Source: Desulfitibacter sp. BRH_c19
GTDB taxonomy: Bacteria; Bacillota; DSM-16504; Desulfitibacterales; Desulfitibacteraceae
Direction: 5' to 3'
Assembly: GCA_001515945.1 (NCBI GenBank)
Contig: LOER01000016.1
Coordinates: 62,001-126,000 of the forward strand
Length of the DNA: 64,000 bases
Below the pieces are notes generated by a model. It saw only the letters and a program-made list of their open reading frames with translations, ran no database searches and was not told the origin of the DNA. The position numbers and the translations under genes are program-made. This document shows positions 5,494 to 19,401 of this stretch, in pieces; positions within the stretch are counted from its first letter, which is position 1; each line of letters starts with the position of its first letter.

Positions 5494-6021
5494 CTATGGG
5501 AATAGACTAAGGTTTTCTTTCCATAGTATGATAAAGCGATCTTTACCACCCTTACCACAACGAACCTTGATAAGCATATTAGTGGAGTCAATATCTAAAA
5601 CACAAAGGTTAAGAACCTCACTAATGCGAAGACCTGCAGAATAGGCAGTCAAAAGAATGGTTTTATGCTTCACATTAGGGATGTGATTCATGATTAAGAA
5701 AATTTCATCCTTGGATAGAACATAAGGGAGCTTCTTTACTTTTTTAGGACGAACAATAACCTCATCAGACCAATTACGTTTAAGGATAGAATTAAACATG
5801 AGTTTGAAGGCATTGCAGGAAATGTTAACGTTGCTGTAGCTAATACCTTTCTTAATTCGGTGATGAAAGAACTTTTTAATTTCATCAGGAGAGACCTGAT
5901 CTGCGGATTGACCATAATACTTTTCAAGTAATCGGACATGGCTCAAGTAATGTCTTTTGGTGTTTTGGGAGTATCCACGGAGCTCCATCTCAAACTTCAT
6001 TTTTTCACAATGATTTGTCAT
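5494..6021 (-). pseudogene. Tyrosine recombinase (XerC/D- or integron/IS91-type integrase), 3'-truncated
   Basis: A 175-aa product with the SAM-like core-binding domain (ELRGYSQNTKRHYLSHV at the N-terminus) and the first part of the catalytic domain (TAYSAGLRISEVLNL with the first catalytic Arg, then GKGGKDRFIIL). It stops there, so the catalytic Lys/His-x-x-Arg and the Tyr nucleophile of a roughly 280-330-aa enzyme are missing. AGGAGG precedes the ATG at 6021. The gene points away from the cassette-like genes at 6322 onward, the arrangement of intI relative to its array. The diagnostic extra helix of IntI would lie in the lost part, so IntI cannot be told from IS91-associated or other Xer-like integrases. 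It should be inactive. Confidence 0.8.
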
Positions 6022-6093
6022 AAGGTAACATCCTCCTAGTTAAATTTATAGGAAGATGATACCATGAAACTGGAATCAGATGACCACCGCGTA

Positions 6094-6109
6094 GCGGTTT
6101 AGTACAACA
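6094..6109 (+). repeat. Copy 1 of a 16-bp repeat bracketing the integron-like segment
   Basis: GCGGTTTAGTACAACA occurs here. A one-mismatch direct copy is at 11062-11077, and an inverted copy of the last 15 bases (exact) is at 11003-11017. These look like ends of a former insertion sequence or MITE. No transposase gene is present. Confidence 0.5.
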
Positions 6110-6151
6110 CGAGCTTTCCCGCAAGGGGCGGTGGGGCGAGTTTTAGGGTAA

Positions 6152-6269
6152 GCCGCCCACATGTCCTCTGTCACAAGACTTGCATTGAGGGTTGTGCTAA
6201 TAAGGATGAGGCAAGTCTTGCGCCAGCCCTAGTGGGACGGACACGTCGGGAATGCCGGGAACGTTAGGC
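6152..6269 (+). other. attC-like or attI-like recombination site at the left end of the cassette segment
   Basis: The right end is GTTAGGC (6263-6269) followed by GAAA, identical through CGTTAGGCGAAA to the end of the attC at 7983-8152. Inside is a perfect 10-bp inner stem (CAAGACTTGC with GCAAGTCTTG) and a matching outer stem (ACATGTCC with GGACACGT, one mismatch). A left core (RYYYAAC) is not visible, so this is either an attI, where only the right core is expected, or a damaged attC. It lies between the truncated integrase and the first cassette gene. Bases 6022-6151 hold the integrase ribosome site, a repeat copy and a GGGCGG/CCGCCC hairpin. Confidence 0.5.
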
Positions 6270-6321: not shown

Positions 6322-6834
6322 ATGACCGTTATGATTCAAAATATTGAAGAATCATTATCCGTATCTTATGTCAGCTCTGTTGTTGCTAAGTCTGGCGCAT
6401 CTTTTGACATAACCTCGAAAGATTATGGTGTAGATGTAAGTGTAAGACGAGTAGATAGATTTAACGGAAAATTGATGGATATGGGAGTGTCATTCGATTG
6501 TCAACTGAAAGCGACAACAAACTGGGCAGCAGAAGAGGAAGCTATTGTTTATGATCTTGAGGTAGACACCTACAATAAACTTGTATATAGACATCAAAAC
6601 TCTTCCATCCCATGTTTATTAGTATTATTATGTTTGCCAAAGGAAGAAGATGACTGGTTAAATATTTCAGAAGAAGAAATTATACTTAGGAAATGCTCAT
6701 ATTATTTTTATTTGGATGGTGCGCCAACGAAAAACAAGAATACTGTCAGGATAAGAATACCACGAACAAATGTGTTTTCTCCCGATGCAGTAATAAAGCT
6801 AATTGAAAAAGTACGTTTGGGGGAAATAGCATGA
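6322..6834 (+). CDS. DUF4365 domain protein (predicted PD-(D/E)xK-like nuclease)
   Basis: A 170-aa single-domain protein matching DUF4365: ESLSVSYVSSVVAKSG at the N-terminus, KDYGVDVSVR (33-42), FDCQLKATTNW (58-68), then a segment with LVLLCLPKEEDDW and a terminal IRIPRTNVFS. The spaced Asp (DYGVD) and Gln-x-Lys (CQLKAT) fit the active-site layout of PD-(D/E)xK nuclease-fold proteins. DUF4365 proteins are often found in mobile or defence settings. GAAGAGGTGA precedes the ATG. The stop overlaps the next gene's start (ATGA), so the two are translationally coupled. Nuclease activity is inferred from fold similarity only. Confidence 0.8.
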   Translation: MTVMIQNIEESLSVSYVSSVVAKSGASFDITSKDYGVDVSVRRVDRFNGKLMDMGVSFDCQLKATTNWAAEEEAIVYDLEVDTYNKLVYRHQNSSIPCLLVLLCLPKEEDDWLNISEEEIILRKCSYYFYLDGAPTKNKNTVRIRIPRTNVFSPDAVIKLIEKVRLGEIA

Positions 6835-7967
6835 ATAATTCAAATGATCGGTTCGAGTTTAATAAAATATCTTTGGAGGATATAGAAAGATATCTTATTG
6901 AAAACAATTGGGAGACGAAAGATCATCCCAATAAAAAAATAAGGTTATTCTTAAGTCCTAAAGATAATGAAGGCAATAGACTTGAAGTGCTATTGCCTCA
7001 GAACAGAGAATTGCAGGATTATATTAGAAGAATAAAAGATACGTTGACTATTATGTCGTTAACTAGTGACATGGATATTAATAGCCTAATACAAAAAATC
7101 ACTCTAATAAGTCATGACATCATTAAAGTCAGGATTCTGGATGTTGGGCCTTCAGGGACGATACCTTTATCGGTAGCAGCCAACGATGTGTATGCTTTAA
7201 AAAACTTGTTTATTTATGCTGCAAGTTCTGAAGAAAAAAGCCTTCCGTTCTTTGATAAACCATTAGCTGTTGGCATATATCATGCCGATATATGCCAATT
7301 TGGCCACACGTTTGAAGGAAGTTTTGGATTTACAATTAACTCACCAATTATAGCAAACTATATACAGTTAACGCTTTTTCAAGAAAAAGAGGAAGTGCCC
7401 TTTGAGAGACGTGTTATGGAGCGGATTATTCGTGGATTGGATTTAGTGGAAAAGTCCGTTAATCAAGATAATGCTGATATTTTAGTGGAGAATTTTGACA
7501 TTGGTTTAAATGCTAGAATGTGTGAAGCCCTTTTAGAATTGTCACAAGAAAAGGCTAAGGAAATCAATTTCCATGTATCTTGGAGTCCTAAAATTAGTGT
7601 GCCTGAGGATATAAGAAGTAAACAATTGTGGAAGCTTGAAAAAAAATCATACGAAGTATTAGAATATGCGGCAGATGAGCTAAAGAAAATCGAACCATTT
7701 CAAGAGACTATTGTTGGTCAGATTATTACATTACACTCAACTAAGAATCCAATGAGTGATGAAGCATTTAATCGCCAAGCTATAGTTAAATATGATTACG
7801 ATGGAAAGACAGTATATGTCAAACTTGATTTAGATAGACATCAATATAGGATTGCTTACGAGGCACATGGGAAGGGGCAACTAATAAGAGTGACAGGGGA
7901 ATTGTTCAGGAAGGGTAATACATGGAAAATGACTGACATAGAAGAGATAACTATAGCTATTAGATGA
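6831..7967 (+). CDS. Protein of unknown function, coupled partner of the DUF4365 gene
   Basis: A 378-aa soluble protein with no signal peptide or membrane segment. It starts at the ATG overlapping the previous stop. The N-terminal half contains SNGTI-like GPSGTIPLSVAANDVYALKNL, and the middle region (about 190-290) is rich in charged helices. The C-terminal 70 residues (IVKYDYDGKTVYVKLD, then YRIAYEAHGKGQLIRVTGEL) look like a small beta-barrel. I do not recognise the family. It shares one cassette with the predicted nuclease, between two GTTAGGC core sites, so the two probably act together, perhaps as effector and sensor or immunity partner. That last point is inference. Confidence 0.75.
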   Translation: MNNSNDRFEFNKISLEDIERYLIENNWETKDHPNKKIRLFLSPKDNEGNRLEVLLPQNRELQDYIRRIKDTLTIMSLTSDMDINSLIQKITLISHDIIKVRILDVGPSGTIPLSVAANDVYALKNLFIYAASSEEKSLPFFDKPLAVGIYHADICQFGHTFEGSFGFTINSPIIANYIQLTLFQEKEEVPFERRVMERIIRGLDLVEKSVNQDNADILVENFDIGLNARMCEALLELSQEKAKEINFHVSWSPKISVPEDIRSKQLWKLEKKSYEVLEYAADELKKIEPFQETIVGQIITLHSTKNPMSDEAFNRQAIVKYDYDGKTVYVKLDLDRHQYRIAYEAHGKGQLIRVTGELFRKGNTWKMTDIEEITIAIR

Positions 7968-7982
7968 TTCTGCGGGGCATCC

Positions 7983-8152
7983 GCCTAACAATGTGTCTGC
8001 ACAAGGGTGCGGACCAGTGATGTCACGAAGAAGGACTTTGGAGAACGAGCATGAAGATAGCCGCACCATATCCCTTTACTGGGTGCAAGCACCGCCAAGG
8101 GGTATTCCTATGATGTCCAGTTCAGGGACATCGCAGACACGGAACGTTAGGC
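7983..8152 (+). other. Integron attC site (about 170 bp)
   Basis: The left end GCCTAAC (7983-7989) fits the inverse core RYYYAAC and the right end GTTAGGC (8146-8152) fits the core GTTRRRY; they are exact reverse complements. The inner arms GTGTCTGC (7993-8000) and GCAGACAC (8133-8140) pair over 8 bp, and the unequal spacers leave the unpaired bases expected of an attC. The long loop has further stems (GGTGCGG/CCGCACC and GATGTCC/GGACATC). It lies 15 bases after the stop of the coupled gene pair and 45 bases before the next start, as expected for a cassette boundary. Confidence 0.8.
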
Positions 8153-8197
8153 GAAATATTTATATCTGACTTGAGGTCATTAAAAGGAGGTAGATGT

Positions 8198-10864
8198 ATG
8201 AAAAAATATTCGGGTTTACAATTTAAGAAGTTTGATCTCCATGTACATACTCCGGGTTCACATGACTTTCAAGACAAGACTGTAACTGCTGAACAGATTG
8301 TAAAAAAAGCCCTTGAGAAGGGGCTAAGAGGTATAGCAATTACCGATCATAATACTGGTGAATGGGTAGATAAAGTAAAAGAGGCTGATAAAGGCAAAAA
8401 TCTGACTATATTTCCTGGTGTTGAAATTTACTGTACTGGTGGTAAAGCCGGGATACATGTAATCGCAATTTTAAGTCCTGATAAAGGCACTAAACATATC
8501 CAAGGTTTATTAGCAACTTTGAAAATTAATCCGGATGATTTTGGGACGCCAAAAGCTGTTACTCCTTTTGCACCCTATCAGGTTATAGATGCGATTTCAT
8601 CCGAACCATACAATGGACTTGCTGTATTAGCTCACTGTACATCATCGAAAGGTGTTCTTCATGATATAACTGGAGAGACTAGGACAAAAATTTTTGAACA
8701 TAAGGGATTATTAGCAGTTGAGACTTCTCTTAATGACTTTATTAATCCTGAAAAGAAAAAGAAATCAATTAGGGCGATTGATTTGTTGAATGGAAAGGAC
8801 CCAAACTATAATTGCCGAAAACTAGGTGTTTATATAGTCTCAGATTCAAAGAAAGGCGATGAAGATAAACATAGTTTAGATGGAATTGGAGCAAAATTTT
8901 CTTATTTTAAGGTTGATGATGAAGTAGATTTGGAGAGTCTTAGACAATGCTTTATCGATAGAGAAGTTCGTATAAGACAGCAATTTGAATTTCAACAACT
9001 AATTTACCCATATATAAAATCTGTGAAAGTAAAGGGTGGCTTTTTTGACGGGCAAGAAGCCATGTTCCATCCTGGTTTAAATAGCATTTTAGGTGCAAAG
9101 GGAGCAGGTAAATCTCTGTTAGTAGAGCTTATGAGATTTGTTTTGGGACAAGTATCGTCTCAAAAGGACATATTTGAAGATCATAATAGAAAGCTACAGA
9201 GAAAGTTAGATACATACGGTTCAGTTGAAGTTAGAGTTCTAGATGAAACTGGGGTAGAACACTATATTGAGCGTACTTATAACCCTACTAAAGGAAATCC
9301 TTATGCAGAAGAAGAACATGAAAGAATTGCGAGTTCATTTCCTATTTTATTTTTAAGCCAAAATGAAATAGTCAAAATTGCAGAAGATGAACAAGAGCAA
9401 ATTCGATTTATAGATAGGTTTTTTGATTTTAAACATTTTCAAAACAGAATAAAAAATATGGAACTCGACTTAAGTGAGTTGGATACACAATTTGCAGGTG
9501 GACTCAAATCTTATAATATTTTGGCTGACATTAGAAAGCAACTCTTGACTAATCGTACTGAGCTTGAAAAACTAAATAAACTTTTATCTGACCCAATTTA
9601 TGACCAGTATAAGTTACTTGAAGAAAAGGATAGAGTTCTAAAGTGGCAACAAACAAGCCTTGAAAACTTACATAACGAGATAAAAGCTGAAATTAATGTA
9701 ATAAAGAAAATGGAATTTCCACATATAGAGGATCCATTATCGAAAGATCCTGTAATAAAAAGGAATCAAGATACTATTAATCTTGTCAGAAATGAAACTG
9801 ATGAATTAATGAACTCTGTATCTGAGGAAATTGAGAAATCTTTAAATAAAATAGAAGTCGAATATAAAAAGTGGAGCTTAATTTTTAACGAAGAAAAGAA
9901 AAAGTATGAAGAACATGTAAGGAAAGCTGGGGGAGATAGAAAAGGCATTGAACTTCAAAGATTGAGAGTAATCAAGCAAATCGATGATTTAGTTAAAAGA
10001 GAAACTTCTCTAATAGAGAAAGCAAATAAATTAAAAAACATTAAAACCCAAAGAGATTCCAAGATGAAAGATTTATTCAAGGTATTTGAAGAATACTCTC
10101 AAGAACGCAAAACTAAATGTAAGAAATTTGAACGTGAATCGGGTGGTTGTTTACAGATTAAAATTCATGAGTCAACCAATGTTGACGAATTTAAAAATAA
10201 ATTATATGTATTGAAGAAAGGATCTTACTTACGAGATTCTGAAATTGACGATATATGTTCTAGAATTACTCCATATGAATTTATTTTAACTTTACTTAGG
10301 TATGAGGTTAAAAAAGATATTACACAACTTACAGAACTCTCAAAAAAGACAGGCGTGGAAATTCAAAAACTTCAAGCTTTATGTGAGTTTCTTCTTAGTC
10401 AAGTTGAGTATGAGGAATTATTACAACTACAATATCGTTCACATCCCCAAGATAGACCAGAAATTAAATTTCGTGTTAATGACGAAAAGTACGAGTTGAT
10501 CAGAGATATATCAGTTGGTCAAAAATGTACTGCTATGCTGATAATGGCACTTAGTGATGGTAAGTTCCCGATAGTTATTGACCAACCAGAGGATTCCTTA
10601 GATGTAAGAAGTGTATGGAATGATATGTGCGTTAAGATTAGAAAGCGAAAAGATAATCGCCAGTTTATTTTTACCACTCATAATTCCTGTCTTGCTGTTG
10701 CCTCAGACACAGATAAATTCACTATTATAGAAAGTGATGCTACACGTGGATCAATTGTAATGTCTGGTGCACTTGAAACCCAAGAGGTTAAGGAGGAAGT
10801 GATCAAATATCTTGAGGGAGGCAGACCAACATTTCAAGCTAAGTCATCAAAATATGGAATTTAG
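8198..10864 (+). CDS. PHP-domain SMC/ABC-type ATPase (TrlF-like)
   Basis: The 888-aa protein starts at ATG 8198, 7 bases after AAAAGGAGG; the longer frame from TTG 8171 lacks a site. Residues 1-260 form a PHP phosphoesterase domain: DLHVHTPGSHD, ITDHN (48-52), FPGVEIY, LAHC, VSDSKKGD. Then come Walker A LGAKGAGKS (298-306), a long coiled coil (about 420-660), the ABC signature ISVGQKC, Walker B IVIDQPEDSLD and the H-loop FIFTTHNS. The layout fits the TrlF family of AAA/SMC-like ATPases carrying a metal-dependent PHP hydrolase; related PHP-SMC genes sit in defence-type islands. Nucleic-acid substrate and role here are inferred. It is the second cassette-like gene after the attC. Confidence 0.85.
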   Translation: MKKYSGLQFKKFDLHVHTPGSHDFQDKTVTAEQIVKKALEKGLRGIAITDHNTGEWVDKVKEADKGKNLTIFPGVEIYCTGGKAGIHVIAILSPDKGTKHIQGLLATLKINPDDFGTPKAVTPFAPYQVIDAISSEPYNGLAVLAHCTSSKGVLHDITGETRTKIFEHKGLLAVETSLNDFINPEKKKKSIRAIDLLNGKDPNYNCRKLGVYIVSDSKKGDEDKHSLDGIGAKFSYFKVDDEVDLESLRQCFIDREVRIRQQFEFQQLIYPYIKSVKVKGGFFDGQEAMFHPGLNSILGAKGAGKSLLVELMRFVLGQVSSQKDIFEDHNRKLQRKLDTYGSVEVRVLDETGVEHYIERTYNPTKGNPYAEEEHERIASSFPILFLSQNEIVKIAEDEQEQIRFIDRFFDFKHFQNRIKNMELDLSELDTQFAGGLKSYNILADIRKQLLTNRTELEKLNKLLSDPIYDQYKLLEEKDRVLKWQQTSLENLHNEIKAEINVIKKMEFPHIEDPLSKDPVIKRNQDTINLVRNETDELMNSVSEEIEKSLNKIEVEYKKWSLIFNEEKKKYEEHVRKAGGDRKGIELQRLRVIKQIDDLVKRETSLIEKANKLKNIKTQRDSKMKDLFKVFEEYSQERKTKCKKFERESGGCLQIKIHESTNVDEFKNKLYVLKKGSYLRDSEIDDICSRITPYEFILTLLRYEVKKDITQLTELSKKTGVEIQKLQALCEFLLSQVEYEELLQLQYRSHPQDRPEIKFRVNDEKYELIRDISVGQKCTAMLIMALSDGKFPIVIDQPEDSLDVRSVWNDMCVKIRKRKDNRQFIFTTHNSCLAVASDTDKFTIIESDATRGSIVMSGALETQEVKEEVIKYLEGGRPTFQAKSSKYGI

Positions 10865-10902
10865 GGTAGGTAGTAGTACATCTCCTAATATTTGGAGATT
10901 TG

Positions 10903-10993
10903 TGATGTTCAGCAAGCAAATAAAAACCCCGGAACAAGATAGCACCGAGTGGAAGTTACAGAGGCATATAATATTATGAGAACTAGAACATCA
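10903..10993. repeat. 8-bp inverted repeat after the PHP-ATPase gene
   Basis: TGATGTTC (10903-10910) and GAACATCA (10986-10993) are exact inverted copies 75 bp apart. A separate ATCTCC/GGAGAT hairpin lies just before them (10880-10899). This is where a cassette-end attC would be expected, but neither GTTRRRY nor RYYYAAC was found at the arms, so it is at most a decayed site. Confidence 0.3.
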
Positions 10994-11002
10994 TGAATCT
11001 TG

Positions 11003-11077
11003 TGTTGTACTAAACCGTCTGCCATACAAAAGTGACGAATTACCTATAGCAAATCAATACAGCGGTTTAGTTCAACA
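11003..11077. mobile_element. 75-bp MITE-like element or insertion-sequence remnant
   Basis: The ends TGTTGTACTAAACCG (11003-11017) and CGGTTTAGTTCAACA (11063-11077) are 15-bp inverted repeats with one mismatch, enclosing 45 bp without coding capacity. A copy of the right-end motif lies at 6094-6109, so the same ends flank the segment from the integrase to the PHP-ATPase. No transposase is present, and no clear target duplication was seen. Confidence 0.5.
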
Positions 11078-11164
11078 GAGTATTCCTAAAATCTGAGAGA
11101 ATATGAATGTAGTAACCAGACTTCGGGAATACACGGTACGTTATCGGGACATGTTTAATTTAAA

Positions 11165-11200
11165 TCTATTGTATAAATCGGGAGAGATTTATACAATAGA
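11165..11200. promoter_or_regulatory. Perfect 15-bp inverted repeat before the phosphoesterase operon
   Basis: TCTATTGTATAAATC (11165-11179) and GATTTATACAATAGA (11186-11200) are exact inverted copies with a 6-nt loop, 28 bases before the likely TTG start and just upstream of its ribosome site. No T-run follows, so it is not an ordinary terminator. It fits an operator for a dimeric repressor or an RNA hairpin controlling translation. Confidence 0.5.
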
Positions 11201-11228
11201 CTTAAATATTTTGGAGGGAGAAGTTGAA

Positions 11229-12032
11229 TTGATAATAATACAATTATCAGATTTGCATATGTGGGCAGGGCATAATTCAGAGGGTATTGATAAACGAATT
11301 CAAGGAATTTTTGATGAAGTAGAAAAGTTTAATGATAATAACATCGTCTGTGTTATATGTGGGGACGTGACCAACAGAGGAAATCCAGACGGATATATTT
11401 GTGCCAAGACTTTTTGCGACAAGTTGAGTTCAAAATTTGAATTGAAAAGTTTTAGGTATGTATTTTGTCCTGGGAACCATGATATTGCCACAGAAGAATG
11501 GAGGAAATTTGCTAGGTTTGATCGTTTTACGTGGGATATAACAAAAAAGACAAATTATGCATTTAGCAATCATAATGTCCAAACAGAAGTAATCCATGAC
11601 TGGGAGTTTCTTATTATTAATAGTGTTTATCATGGAGATCGTAATTATGGTAGGGTGGATATAAATTTACTTAAGGAAAAACTGGACCAATCGAGAAATG
11701 ACAATAAAATATTTATATTGCACCATCACTTAATTCCAATATTAAAGAAAGAGAGATCTGCAACAGAAAATGCTTATGAGTTATTTTTGCTTGCTGAGAA
11801 ATATGGTGTAAAGTTAATTTTGCATGGACATCAGCATATGTATATTAATATTTCAGTTGGGAAAACTCCATGCCAAATTATTGGAGTAGGAAGTTTACTT
11901 AAGAACTCAGGTACGGATTATAGTAATCAGTTTATAATAATAAGTTTAACCGATAGTTTAATAGGAGATTTCAAATGTTTTCGGTATAATGGAGATTGTG
12001 TAGCAAGTGGAACTATGGGAGGATTTATTTAA
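11229..12032 (+). CDS. Calcineurin-like metallophosphoesterase, first gene of a four-gene operon
   Basis: The start is TTG 11229, preceded by GGAGGGAGAAG; an upstream in-frame ATG at 11103 would read through the 15-bp hairpin and add nothing domain-like. The 268-aa protein has the full metal-ligand set: SDLHMW (7-12), GDVTNRG (45-51), GNHD (82-85), the triple His of FILHHHL and HGHQHM near residue 190. The family includes phosphodiesterases and nucleotide phosphatases; the substrate is unknown. It is followed at 19 bases by the TS-like gene. Next to a MazG-like enzyme it may act on nucleotides, which is inference. Confidence 0.8.
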   Translation: MIIIQLSDLHMWAGHNSEGIDKRIQGIFDEVEKFNDNNIVCVICGDVTNRGNPDGYICAKTFCDKLSSKFELKSFRYVFCPGNHDIATEEWRKFARFDRFTWDITKKTNYAFSNHNVQTEVIHDWEFLIINSVYHGDRNYGRVDINLLKEKLDQSRNDNKIFILHHHLIPILKKERSATENAYELFLLAEKYGVKLILHGHQHMYINISVGKTPCQIIGVGSLLKNSGTDYSNQFIIISLTDSLIGDFKCFRYNGDCVASGTMGGFI

Positions 12033-12051
12033 GGTATCTAGGGGGGATATT

Positions 12052-12969
12052 ATGAGTGATGTTAATAATATTATAAGTAATACACTTGAAGAGTTGTATA
12101 ATAGTACATTAGAGCGCTGCCAAGAAGTTCAAGAAAACTTAATCTTAACAGGTACATTTAATATTAACGAGATATACTCACAGTTTATTACCTTGAACTA
12201 TGATATAGCAGAAAAATGGCAAATGGAACAAAAACCACCAGAGTTAATAATAAATCATGGAGAATATATTAACAAAAAAAACCTTGCAGATAGTGAGTCA
12301 GGAATTTCATTTATAATTGAGGAACTAAAGAGGAAAAATGAAGGTAACCGGGCCTGTTTCAGCTTAATTAATATGTATGATATCATTGACAGCGGAGATG
12401 AGGCTATTCCCTCGTTTCTTGTTTTGCAATTTAGTTTTTCTCATTATGATCCAAAAACGCTCCTCGTAACTGCCTATTTTCGTGCTTTAGAAGTTGAAAA
12501 TTTTCTGCCTATAAACTTAGCTGAAATTTGTATAAATATCAATAAGATATGCCAACACTTTCCGAAAATTGAGACATTCAAATTACATCTTGTCGCGTTT
12601 AGGGCTCAGAGAATTAAGAATTTTAGTTGTTTGACTAAATGTACAATAGATGTAATAGATTCTATGAAAATTATGGTGTTGATTGATGATGGAAACAGAA
12701 GTGAGATAGTAAAATTGTTGCAAGAGAAATTGAACTCTAAAGAGTCTGTAATTATTACTGATGGTATTCAATCTTTATCCAAAGGTATGAAATTAAGAGG
12801 ATTCGAAATAATATCTGAACAAATTGATGAAATAGTAAAAGCTATGAATGAAGTTAATACACTTAGAAAAAGTACTTCAGTATACAATGATAAATTAAAA
12901 GAGAAATATCAGGAAATAAGTTGTAACCTGGAAAAAGCATTAAAGTTGATAGAAGAGGAGTGGAACTAA
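12052..12969 (+). CDS. Thymidylate-synthase-fold protein with degenerate active site
   Basis: Start ATG 12052 has AGGGGGG 6 bases upstream. Residues 99-205 of the 305-aa protein follow the thymidylate synthase pattern: NRACFSL, IPSFLVLQFSF, LLVTAYFRALEVENFLPINLAEI. In true enzymes the segment reads FRS-x-D and is followed by a conserved Asn; here Ser and Asp are replaced (FRALE), so classical catalysis is doubtful. The C-terminal 80 residues are charged and helical, probably coiled coil. The assignment is from recognisable sequence pattern, not a search. It sits between a phosphoesterase and a MazG-like gene, suggesting a role in binding or modifying a nucleotide. Confidence 0.6.
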   Translation: MSDVNNIISNTLEELYNSTLERCQEVQENLILTGTFNINEIYSQFITLNYDIAEKWQMEQKPPELIINHGEYINKKNLADSESGISFIIEELKRKNEGNRACFSLINMYDIIDSGDEAIPSFLVLQFSFSHYDPKTLLVTAYFRALEVENFLPINLAEICININKICQHFPKIETFKLHLVAFRAQRIKNFSCLTKCTIDVIDSMKIMVLIDDGNRSEIVKLLQEKLNSKESVIITDGIQSLSKGMKLRGFEIISEQIDEIVKAMNEVNTLRKSTSVYNDKLKEKYQEISCNLEKALKLIEEEWN

Positions 12970-12970
12970 A

Positions 12971-13312
12971 ATGGACTTAAAGGAAATCATCAAGATACAA
13001 GAAGAGTTTGACCAGAATCACTCCAGCAAGTTCAACTGGAACAAAAAAATTACAAATGATAATCTAGAAATGTTAGAATTTATTTTAATTAGTATGTTTG
13101 GGGAAATAGGCGAAACAGCTAATCTAGTAAAAAAAATTATTAGAGGTGATTTCAAATTAGACGAAAAAAGGTCAGCCCTTTCTGAGGAAATAGCAGATAT
13201 ATTTATCTATCTAATTAAACTAAGTAACCAATTAGATATTGACCTAGAACAAAGCTACTTTAATAAGCTGGAGAAAAATAGAAAGAGATTTCAAAGATAT
13301 GAAATTGAATAA
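12971..13312 (+). CDS. MazG-like nucleotide pyrophosphohydrolase
   Basis: The 113-aa all-helical protein has the MazG metal-binding pattern GEIGETANLVKKI (44-56) and EEIADIFIYLIKLSNQLDI (72-90). Family members cleave (d)NTPs or modified nucleotides to monophosphate and pyrophosphate, as house-cleaning enzymes or within phage-bacterium conflict systems. It starts one base after the TS-like stop, and its end overlaps the radical SAM start by 14 bases, so it is translated within the operon. Confidence 0.8.
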   Translation: MDLKEIIKIQEEFDQNHSSKFNWNKKITNDNLEMLEFILISMFGEIGETANLVKKIIRGDFKLDEKRSALSEEIADIFIYLIKLSNQLDIDLEQSYFNKLEKNRKRFQRYEIE

Positions 13313-14216
13313 TATAGATACAATAGAGATTCATTACGAAATTACATCACAGTGCCCACTGAGTTGTAAACATTGTTCATCTGAATCCTCTTACAGAAAC
13401 ACTAACAAAGCAGACTTAGGAAATTATTTAAAACTCTTAAAGATTCTTTCAAAGAAAAACGATATTATCTCAATATTTACTGGTGGAGAGCCATTAATAC
13501 ATGGGAGTCAATTTATTTGTGAATCATTAAAGAAGGTAAATAAGATTGAAAATATTAAGTTGGGCCTATTCACATCAGGTTGTTCTACAGCTAATAATCA
13601 TATTTATCCAGTCACTAAAGAATATGCAAACGAACTAAAAGAAAGTGGTCTTGATTTTGTTTATATGTCGATATATAGCCATAAGCCTGAAATACATGAC
13701 CAAATTACAGGAACGCTAGGTTCTTTCAATGCTTCTTTAAAATCAATCTATAATTTTATTGGAGCAGGAGTTACTGTTAACGCGCACTTGGTTCTTTTAT
13801 CTAATAATGTGACAGACATTAAAGAGACTATCCAATACTTAATTGAATTAGGAATAAAAGAAGTTAGACTGTTACGTCTAGTTAAACATGGGAGAGCTAA
13901 AGATAACTGGAACGAGATAGGGATGTCAAGAGAGGAACAGGCGGATATTGTTAAAAGTATATGCGGTTCTAATCAGTTTAATAGATCTGTTACAGTAAGT
14001 GGTTTTCTAGAGATACAAAATTGTCTTAGTTTCAAAAAGAGCAATAAATGTTACGCAGGTATAAATAAATTATATATAGATAAAGATGGTTATGTTTATG
14101 GGTGTGCTTGTAAGAAAAAGATTGAACTTTTCAGACTTACAAATATAAAAGATATAGATACAAATTTCAGACTCCAACGAATTAATTCATTGGATATGTG
14201 TATGCAAGATTTATAG
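13299..14216 (+). CDS. Radical SAM enzyme with partial SPASM/twitch-like C-terminus
   Basis: A 305-aa radical S-adenosylmethionine enzyme. CPLSCKHC (Cys 19, 23, 26) binds the [4Fe-4S] cluster, TGGEP (61-65) contacts SAM, and conserved beta-barrel strands follow. Near the C-terminus, NKCYAGINKLYIDKDG then VYGCACKK and a final Cys resemble the first half of a SPASM or twitch auxiliary-cluster domain, but the protein ends soon after. It overlaps the MazG-like gene by 14 bases and ends the operon before a hairpin terminator. The substrate is unknown; peptide maturation (usual for SPASM) or nucleotide chemistry (suggested by the neighbours) are both possible. Confidence 0.8.
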   Translation: MKLNNIDTIEIHYEITSQCPLSCKHCSSESSYRNTNKADLGNYLKLLKILSKKNDIISIFTGGEPLIHGSQFICESLKKVNKIENIKLGLFTSGCSTANNHIYPVTKEYANELKESGLDFVYMSIYSHKPEIHDQITGTLGSFNASLKSIYNFIGAGVTVNAHLVLLSNNVTDIKETIQYLIELGIKEVRLLRLVKHGRAKDNWNEIGMSREEQADIVKSICGSNQFNRSVTVSGFLEIQNCLSFKKSNKCYAGINKLYIDKDGYVYGCACKKKIELFRLTNIKDIDTNFRLQRINSLDMCMQDL

Positions 14217-14219
14217 ATG

Positions 14220-14246
14220 TAGGTAGATATAATATCTGCTATTTTT
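14220..14246 (+). terminator. Probable terminator of the four-gene operon
   Basis: TAG, AGATAT and ATATCT, CTA form a near-perfect hairpin (14220-14241) directly followed by TTTTT. Confidence 0.55.
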
Positions 14247-14329
14247 ATAATCATTCTATTTAATACAATATGTTAAATTGAGGATATTCAAGCAGCTAAG
14301 TATACATAACATTAGAGGTGGTGGTTTTA

Positions 14330-14902
14330 ATGATATCGAGGTGCAAATGGGTTGCTAATGACCCATTGTATGTAAGATACCATGATAAAGAGTGGGGAGT
14401 CCCAGAACATGATGATAGTAAGTTGTTTGAGCTTTTAACACTAGAAGGGGCTCAAGCTGGATTGAGTTGGTTTATAATTCTCAAGAAACGAGAGAATTAC
14501 AGAATAGCTTTTGACGATTTTGTTATTGAAAAGGTAGCAAACTATGATCAAGCAAAGGTAGAAGTGCTGATGCAAAACAAGGGAATTGTAAGAAACCGAT
14601 TAAAAATACAGTCTACTACAAATAATGCAAAAGCAGTAATTAAGATACAAAAAGAGTTTGGTAGCTTTGATACTTATATATGGGGTTTTATCGGCGGTAA
14701 ACAAATAAGAAATGCTTGGACAAACCAGTCGGATGTGCCTGTAAAAACTTGTGAATCAGATGCGATGAGTAAGGACCTTTCTAAAAGGGGATTTAAATTT
14801 GTCGGGTCTACGATTTGTTACGCTTTTATGCAAGCAACAGGGATGGTTAACGATCATATAACTCAGTGCTATCGATATCAAGAAATAGATAATATAAAAT
14901 AG
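14330..14902 (+). CDS. tag: DNA-3-methyladenine glycosylase I
   Basis: This base-excision enzyme removes 3-methyladenine from alkylated DNA. The ATG 14330 lies about 10 bases after GAGGTGG; a GTG at 14318 in the same frame overlaps that site. The four zinc ligands are present and spaced as in Tag: Cys5 (SRCKW), His18 (RYHDKEWG), His176 and Cys180 (NDHITQCYRY). LTLEGAQAGLSWFIIL contains the catalytic Glu region. At 190 aa it has the usual length. It is monocistronic at the right end of the accessory region. Confidence 0.95.
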   Translation: MISRCKWVANDPLYVRYHDKEWGVPEHDDSKLFELLTLEGAQAGLSWFIILKKRENYRIAFDDFVIEKVANYDQAKVEVLMQNKGIVRNRLKIQSTTNNAKAVIKIQKEFGSFDTYIWGFIGGKQIRNAWTNQSDVPVKTCESDAMSKDLSKRGFKFVGSTICYAFMQATGMVNDHITQCYRYQEIDNIK

Positions 14903-18366: not shown

Positions 18367-19401
18367 TTACTTTACTTTTTTTAAATAAGTTTCTATTCCT
18401 GAACTGTAGTCTAGGTCTTCGTAAATATCATTCGCATTAATTATTAGTAAGTCATCACGTGACATTGTATTCTTTTCCACAAGTCTATAAGCTTGCTTTC
18501 TAATTGACTTTTCAACAATATTTCTAACCATGCGTGCATTACCTATTTGTGCGTGGCCAGATGCTATATGTTTCTTCAAAACGGTTTCAAGTTTTATTTT
18601 TGCGTCAATGGAAAAATAATAATCCCTTTGCGTTAACATTTCTTCAGCAATTTTAACCAGTTCTTCTAATGTATAATCTGGAAATTCAATATGAATCGGA
18701 AATCTTGAACGTAATCCAGGATTTGTGCGAATTAACTTTTCCATTTCATTCTTGTAACCTGCTAATATAAGTATTATGTTATCTCTATTGTCTTCCATTC
18801 CTTTAACAAGGCAGTCAATGGCCTCTCTTCCAAAATCCTTATCTCCCCCTCTAGCCAAGGAATAGGCTTCATCCACAAACAAAACTCCTCCAAGTGCATT
18901 TTTTATACTTTCTCTAGCACGCATTGCAGTATGGCCAATATATTCCCCCACAAGATCAGCTCTTTCTACTTCAACTAAATGGCCTTTTGAAAGAATACCC
19001 ATTTCCTTAAAAAAGCTCCCTAATATACGAGCTACTGTAGTTTTGCCAGTACCGGGATTACCCTTAAAAACCATGTGAAGTACCATTGCTTCATTTGTAA
19101 GTTTTTCCTTCGATCTAGCCTTTTGAACTAGGACATATGCTCTAAGTTCCTTTATAAGAAGTTTAACCTCATTCAAGCCAACCAAGACATCTAATTCCTT
19201 TAATACATCTTGGCCATCAATAACGGAATTAGTCTGTCTTATTTTAGTGTTTTGAGATATACTATTAGTTTTTTTATTTGCTTTTGTATTTGTATTATTT
19301 TGTATTTGCCTTTGTGTTTGTGTGTTTTTATGGTTATGGTTAGCTGAACTTGCACTATAGGACTTTGACCCTTGCTTATTAAAACTAAATCTAACCTCCA
19401 T
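18367..19401 (-). CDS. spoVK: Stage V sporulation protein K, AAA+ ATPase
   Basis: A 344-aa CbbX/SpoVK-type AAA+ ATPase needed for late spore maturation. After an Asn/Gln/Lys-rich, probably disordered N-terminus (1-65) come Walker A KGNPGTGKTTVAR, Walker B GGVLFVDEAYSLARG, sensor 1 ILILAGYKNEM and the arginine finger NPGLRSRFP. Bacillus SpoVK is about 320 aa and lacks such a long low-complexity tail. A BSGAGG-type site (GGAGGG) precedes the ATG. It sits between hfq and the YnbB-like gene. Confidence 0.88.
   Translation of the reverse strand: MEVRFSFNKQGSKSYSASSANHNHKNTQTQRQIQNNTNTKANKKTNSISQNTKIRQTNSVIDGQDVLKELDVLVGLNEVKLLIKELRAYVLVQKARSKEKLTNEAMVLHMVFKGNPGTGKTTVARILGSFFKEMGILSKGHLVEVERADLVGEYIGHTAMRARESIKNALGGVLFVDEAYSLARGGDKDFGREAIDCLVKGMEDNRDNIILILAGYKNEMEKLIRTNPGLRSRFPIHIEFPDYTLEELVKIAEEMLTQRDYYFSIDAKIKLETVLKKHIASGHAQIGNARMVRNIVEKSIRKQAYRLVEKNTMSRDDLLIINANDIYEDLDYSSGIETYLKKVK

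Follow-up and report, generated by a model that had tools for sequence, protein, structure and literature searches.

Does the 170-nt segment that lies between two genes of the Firmicute Desulfitibacter sp. BRH_c19 represent an integron attC site, as was read from its letters alone, and which recombinase would act on it? In integrons, the bottom strand of an attC extrudes as a hairpin, the G^TT core of which is cut by a tyrosine recombinase; a second attC or an attI serves as the partner in the exchange of the circular cassette. The segment (positions 7983-8152, the target) was analysed in its window, that is, the whole stretch of 64,000 nt of contig C16, and together with the rest of the genome and a sample of the phylum. 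The coordinates of the features are collected in table 1.

The target site and its neighborhood

The target carries the structural features of an attC: inverse R'' and R' boxes (..AAC and GTT..), paired L boxes, an unpaired spacer and an extrahelical base. In detail, the GCCTAAC and GTTAGGC ends are exact inverses, as the sequence-only reading had claimed, and were read at 7983-7989 and 8146-8152. Its further claims, that the inner arms pair over 8 bp with unequal spacers and that the site falls between two genes, proved correct as well; the arms are GTGTCTGC and GCAGACAC, the preceding stop codon is at 7967 and the next gene starts at an ATG at 8198 or a TTG at 8171. Folding of the bottom strand, a check which that reading had proposed, gave an attC-type hairpin of -30.5 kcal/mol with a z of -2.6, equalled by none of 200 shuffles; its R and L boxes are paired, one side has an unpaired spacer of 4 nt, and the inner hairpins are long.

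A crude scan for R and L boxes returned many false sites and was replaced by covariance models. Model R1 was built from seven short attC sites, and 9 of its 12 stem pairs show compensatory changes. Model R2, our own, was built from 10 long attCs, the target being kept out of the training. The covariance search, also proposed beforehand, scored the target with R2 at 58.3 bits (E 9.2e-12, whole genome), and since the target is absent from the training, this match is an independent test of it. When the genome was searched at the DNA level, two relatives of the target turned up on contig C20 (78% and 72% identity). The Rfam search found no family at the target up to E 10, with one chance match outside the site. 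Traces of recombination (insertion at G^TT, flank divergence) were found only at sister sites and not at the target itself. The target is a genuine attC, ending one gene cassette and beginning the next, and the claim of an attC in a Firmicute is borne out by the structure, the fold, the independent R2 match and the further copies.

Table 1. Coordinates of the features in the window (plain numbers) and on other sequences (named)
Feature	Position	Strand	Remarks
Truncated IntI-like tyrosine recombinase gene, 175 aa	5494..6021	-	Pfam SAM_4, Phage_integrase
Internally deleted IS91-like element remnant carrying the recombinase fragment	about 5501-6101		5501-6112 91% DNA-identical to the C1 element
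attC 1, 168 nt	6102..6269	+	R'' GTACAAC, R' GTTAGGC; R2 149 bits (training member); fold z -3.75
Two-gene cassette, genes overlapping	6322..7967	+	Candidate anti-phage system PDC-M02A/B (PADLOC: PDC-M02A 3.4e-63, PDC-M02B 5e-152)
DUF4365 protein gene	6322-6834	+	Pfam DUF4365 3.9e-22
378-aa protein gene, second in cassette	6831-7967	+	
attC 2 (target), 170 nt	7983..8152	+	R2 58.3 bits, not in training; fold
Second cassette, PHP + SMC-like ATPase protein	8198..10864 (start possibly 8171)	+	Pfam PHP, AAA_23; PADLOC Ppl 5.4e-46
IS91-like remnant (one long end + terminal hairpin)	10878..11069	+	Directly before attC 3 R''
attC 3, 77 nt	11070..11146	+	R1 84.7 bits (training member); sequence
IS91-like insertion junctions	6101/6102; 11069/11070; L016 about 4630; L053 about 2061		
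Gene-less mini-cassettes, this lineage	L010:5777-5960, L017:2450-2640 and others		Two hairpins each
Shared two-gene cassette	L088:8300-8933 (congener G001); L033:17036 onward (this genome)		
Chryseobacterium plasmid mini-cassettes, three copies at GTT cores	L179:7113, 9208, 11589		Gene-less; sequence unlike that of Bacillota

Judged by its profile matches, the product of 8198-10864 appears to be a Ppl-type defence protein, and the cassettes of the window look like phage-defence genes, a cargo that a swappable gene bank would be expected to hold. Beyond attC 3, at 11147-14902, there are genes for a calcineurin-like phosphoesterase, a 320-aa protein, a MazG-like protein, a radical SAM protein and a 3-methyladenine glycosylase-like protein; these may be further cassettes or the flank of the array. 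No further attC was found between 11146 and about 16000 of the window. On the spore-forming nature of the host, which the sequence-only reading had named, the analysis covered one ORF, at 18367-19401, which by eye is presumably SpoVK-like.

The attCs at both ends of the window array adjoin remnants of IS91-like elements. The related element of contig C1 has an IS91 transposase (NF033538, E 5e-127) with a recombinase adjoining it, to which the product of 5494-6021 is 91% identical in protein. This fragment was considered as an integron integrase and rejected, being part of an IS91-like element that sits at an attC. The second remnant is 86% identical to the C1 element over 10878-11058, and its junction with attC 3 reads TTTAGT/TCAAC. 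In its IS91 transposase and its Int of the same broad clade, the C1 element resembles IS91-family elements with an accessory tyrosine recombinase, from which it differs in placement: in four of the four copies seen (two in the window, one on C1 and one, of 70% identity, in the related MAG L053), the element end TTTAGT directly abuts the R'' box, (A/T)CAAC, of an attC. The IS91-like element with its own IntI-like recombinase occurs in two genomes and at different attC types, always at the R'' box, and apparently targets attC. No report of IS91 targeting of attC was found in the open-access literature searched.

The window array has no integrase of its own, only the IS91-borne Int fragment being nearby, and no attI-like site (palindromic repeats with a GTT core) was found for it. 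With at least two attCs less than 4 kb apart and no neighboring integron integrase, it classifies as a CALIN. Because it has no integrase of its own and carries IS91-like remnants at its attC boxes, the window array is seen as an integrase-less cluster with apparently attC-targeting insertion elements.

Cassette arrays and traces of recombination across the genome

At least 30 attCs are present in this Firmicute genome, on several contigs. The sequence-only reading had named a score below threshold and a lack of further copies as what would speak against it; R1 matched 21 places in the genome and R2 18, together about 36 distinct ones. The lower figure is stated because some R1 matches are weak or are parts of a 181-bp mini-cassette. 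Arrays of co-oriented, unrelated small genes separated by attCs, the arrangement expected of an integron, are found on contigs C1, C6, C8, C16 and C20, with weaker or isolated attC matches on C2, C3 and C34. Hairpins between genes on C20, C1 and C8 share the box layout of the target. Both congeners and the related MAG (L053) carry attC arrays by R1 and R2 as well, and the earlier suggestion of cassette capture in this lineage is upheld by all these arrays.

The 181-bp mini-cassette has no gene and is complete in three of the seven places where it occurs, being cut by contig ends in the others. Its copies are identical over the 110-nt core compared. Four different attCs have the mini-cassette directly behind their ..ACG, and two attI-like sites directly behind their ..AATAG; its end is at CCACG/TTA, where CCACG is followed by TTAxxx. 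On C8 and C40, mini-cassettes are located directly at attI-like sites. Similarly, one cassette is duplicated, with a copy at an end of C8 and another at an end of C20; the two agree fully across 291 nt upstream and on through the attC as far as the GTT, after which the neighbors differ. The placement of the mini-cassette exactly at the G^TT of different attCs is an indication that site-specific recombination has occurred here. As read from the junctions, exact insertions at G^TT and divergence of the flanks after GTT bear the mark of exchange at the crossover point of integrons.

Gene-less mini-cassettes in general consist of two hairpins and are multiplied within arrays, their sequences differing between Bacillota and a Chryseobacterium plasmid; they could be terminators or selfish cassettes. 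Group II intron remnants are also found within cassette arrays (L010:3903-3994 and L017:8741-8846, both on the minus strand). The Rfam matches are to RF00029 (just under the cut-off) and RF02005, and the one on C20 is inside an attC. A two-gene cassette, encoding a 129-aa aspartyl-protease-like protein and an 87-aa partner, is found in the arrays of two congeners with different neighbors. In the related MAG, the cassette at L053:5735-8212 matches the candidate defence pair PDC-M37A/B.

The recombinases heading the arrays and their spread

The canonical IntI profile (TIGR02249) gave nothing over its cut-off in this genome, in the genus or in four genomes of the window's class, and passed the cut-off in 2 of 399 genomes of the phylum. 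The tyrosine recombinases that head the arrays are mostly of 355-395 aa and match the IntI profile in two stretches, the middle being absent. Their KxxDR-to-HxxRH distance is 58-60 aa, compared with 64-65 in Xer and 100 in IntI1, IntI2 and the canonical IntIs of the phylum. By sequence, the family is related to IntI but lacks its additional (patch III) domain of ~41 aa, and an IntI with this domain was not found in the present genome either by profile or by spacing. Most members have an N-terminal extension of ~75 aa.

The intact member in this genome is a 355-aa protein of contig C8. Its best PDB match is VchIntIA (2a3v, E 1.5e-41), and a C-terminal SPLxR motif is found in both. A C-terminal SPLD motif is common to the family and IntI and absent from Xer. 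In the maximum-likelihood tree, canonical IntI is supported at 100/100, and IntI together with the family is split at 100/100 from the XerC/D-like proteins of the genomes, so that the family does not group with the host Xer recombinases. The branching order inside the group of IntI and the family is largely unresolved. The Xer-like genes of C16 and C32 were considered and found not to be integron-associated, and so were the recombinase fragments of C2 and C9, which are contig-end repeats. No description of a patch-less integrase class was found in the open-access literature searched.

When Int and attCs are on one contig, the array lies downstream of Int and on the same strand in 16 out of 16 genomes (G000 C8, G281, G387, G343, G069, G120, G043, G383, G127, G275, G256, G009, G126, G084, G128 and G228), with the caveats that the Int gene is interrupted in G387 and G228 and that the attC of G127 is weak (20 bits). 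Contig C18 of G187, with a shorter Int of the IS91-borne clade head-on to an attC, was set aside from this count. Most Int genes whose 3' end was read have, within about 150 bp of the stop, palindromic repeats (such as ACGAAN5TTCGT, CGAACN4GTTCG or CGACAN4TGTCG) and a GTTAKRY core, which resembles the attC R' box. Among the exceptions are L144 (G281), with a core and no clear palindrome, and L152 (G015), with neither. By their sequence pattern, these repeats and core are read as attI-like. On C8, for instance, an attI-like site with palindromic CGAAC..GTTCG repeats comes after the Int gene, and the cassette array then runs on in the same direction. In the array-bearing G235, G152, G276 and G203, no such Int was found at E 1e-30 (Xer-level or no matches), so these arrays are either orphans or depend on some other factor.

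The phylum was sampled evenly with 399 genomes, of which 33, from 28 of 267 genera, have attCs by R2 (E 1e-5 or better). Twelve regions were read, eleven from other genomes and C40 of this one; they hold long arrays, the matches of each region being on one strand, and in some arrays over 20 sites are packed into 19 kb. G126, G228, G235 and G275 are each assembled into a single contig and have two or more R2 matches. Around the canonical IntI loci of G311 and G125, and in two integron-bearing regions of Pseudomonadota used as checks, R1 and R2 found no attC. As the models miss those canonical loci, they are lineage-limited and 33 of 399 is a lower bound. With IntegronFinder 2.0, integrons appeared extremely rare in Firmicutes (PMC9024848): besides a few CALINs, Limnochorda alone had a complete one. 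The rarity asserted by the sequence-only reading is this published view, beyond which the present evidence goes: attC arrays are common in the phylum, and the integrase type at their head escapes the IntI-specific profile.

Explanations, tet(X) and relation to known integrons

In Bacteroidota, a Chryseobacterium plasmid encodes an Int of 347 aa, 40% identical across 97% of the query, with a co-oriented array downstream, in which R1 recognises one attC (32.1 bits, E 1.1e-5). Judged by these matches, the patch-less integron class is probably found in Bacteroidota too. The "xerD" beside tet(X3) of Acinetobacter is, by its alignment, a truncated member of the patch-less family, with 56% identity to the C8 Int over 211 aa and a place in the same tree clade. 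In the plasmids compared (NZ_CP043637, L181; NZ_CP123862, L182; NZ_CP041297, L180), the sequence shared by tet(X2) (Empedobacter and Sphingobacterium plasmids) and tet(X3) starts exactly at GTTATGT. Upstream of it there are three unrelated sequences (13, 17 and 24 matches in 60 nt, near chance). Both tet(X2) copies share the complete downstream attC to the GTT, and the flanks then diverge; in Acinetobacter, tet(X3) is followed by an attC of which apparently half is missing, beside the res/ISVsa3 region. The exact G^TT boundaries in unrelated contexts indicate that tet(X) behaves as an integron cassette, and an apparently overlooked kind of integron may explain how this tigecycline-resistance gene became mobile.

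The target would work as an attC hairpin cleaved at G^TT by a tyrosine recombinase. The best candidate for this enzyme is the IntI-related family without the patch III domain, represented here by the C8 Int. The window array would then be a detached cluster, once connected to such a platform and either acted on in trans or now static. Directly readable in the DNA are the attCs and their arrays, the insertions at G^TT, the absence of the additional domain and the constant order of the genes; we infer that the patch-less recombinase carries out the recombination and that the repeats act as attI. It is highly probable that the target is an attC of an integron array of a non-canonical, co-directional class, with the patch-less Int family as the candidate enzyme, and the best reading is that this class is filed as integrase-less arrays by searches for the IntI domain.

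Among the rival explanations, the one with some weight is that canonical IntI of other bacteria seeded the arrays, which would then be CALINs with unrelated passengers as head recombinases. The near absence of canonical IntI (2 of 399 genomes, none in the four class genomes), the window array without integrase and the commonness of CALINs in bacteria (PMC9668308) fit such an origin. It is nevertheless unlikely, as passengers would not be expected to keep position and orientation in 16 of 16 cases, to be followed by attI-like repeats or to recur in the same layout on the Bacteroidota plasmid, and mini-cassettes lie directly at the attI-like sites of C8 and C40. Far less probable is that the hairpin is some other GC-rich repeat, such as a terminator, a REP-like element, a structured RNA or a transposon end. 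Although the site is GC-rich in an AT-rich genome and IS91-like remnants are nearby, no Rfam family is found there, and the R/L layout, the covariation, the place between unrelated genes and the G^TT insertion are all attC-specific; the independent R2 match largely refutes this reading.

Least credible is contamination, by which the cassette contigs and the site would be foreign to the lineage. C1 (5 kb) and C20 (8 kb) are indeed small, but the window belongs to a 409-kb contig, the arrays of C8 surround apparent thiC, cobS and purF genes, a congener has an array 1.18 Mb into a 1.24-Mb contig, arrays are found in the single-contig genomes G126, G228, G275 and G387, and the contamination of the genome is 1.31%. 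Beyond the target, we consider it likely from the compared sequences that a second functional integron lineage exists in Bacillota and Bacteroidota, with a co-directional patch-less Int, a 3' palindromic attI and standard attC cassettes, and that it was the platform that captured tet(X) and other resistance genes of Flavobacteriaceae before these reached Acinetobacter and Enterobacterales.

About 8% of the 399-genome phylum sample carries attC arrays, many of them headed by a different integrase. The additional domain was reportedly found necessary for the activity of a canonical IntI (Messier and Roy 2001, cited in PMC2426708), which counts against recombination by the patch-less Int. If the patch-less Int is active, attC recombination would not universally require this domain, which could then have been gained within a broader clade of integron integrases, and standard surveys would undercount integrons. 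For the part played by XerD in tet(X) mobilisation, which a 2020 paper did not decide (PMC7473080), a testable answer is now offered. In addition, a candidate enzyme is offered for the resistance genes of Riemerella, for which a 2026 paper described an attC-like end without a known integron and RecA-independent integration (PMC13148043).

Canonical chromosomal integrons (Vibrio-type) and class 1 integrons have in common with the present arrays the attC structure, the G^TT crossover, the co-oriented arrays of small genes, a repeat-bearing attI (putative in the present arrays) adjoining the integrase gene and a related tyrosine recombinase with a C-terminal SPL(D). They differ in that the Int here is without the patch III domain, mostly has the N-terminal extension and is transcribed toward the array, the putative attI being at the 3' end of the gene. 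Integrons of Treponema presumably carry a canonical IntI. Their integrase is also transcribed toward the array (PMC3607928), so that they share the integrase-to-cassette orientation of the family described here and differ in the integrase. The xerD-tet(X) modules (PMC7473080, PMC9784759) are alike in having xerD in the patch-less clade and tet(X) with cassette boundaries; unlike the intact arrays, those of Acinetobacter have a truncated Int and an apparently half-lost tet(X3) attC. A search that requires the IntI profile would call the present arrays CALINs (PMC9024848, PMC9668308), which is true of the window array alone, whereas in at least 16 arrays of the sample a recombinase occupies the place where one would be expected.
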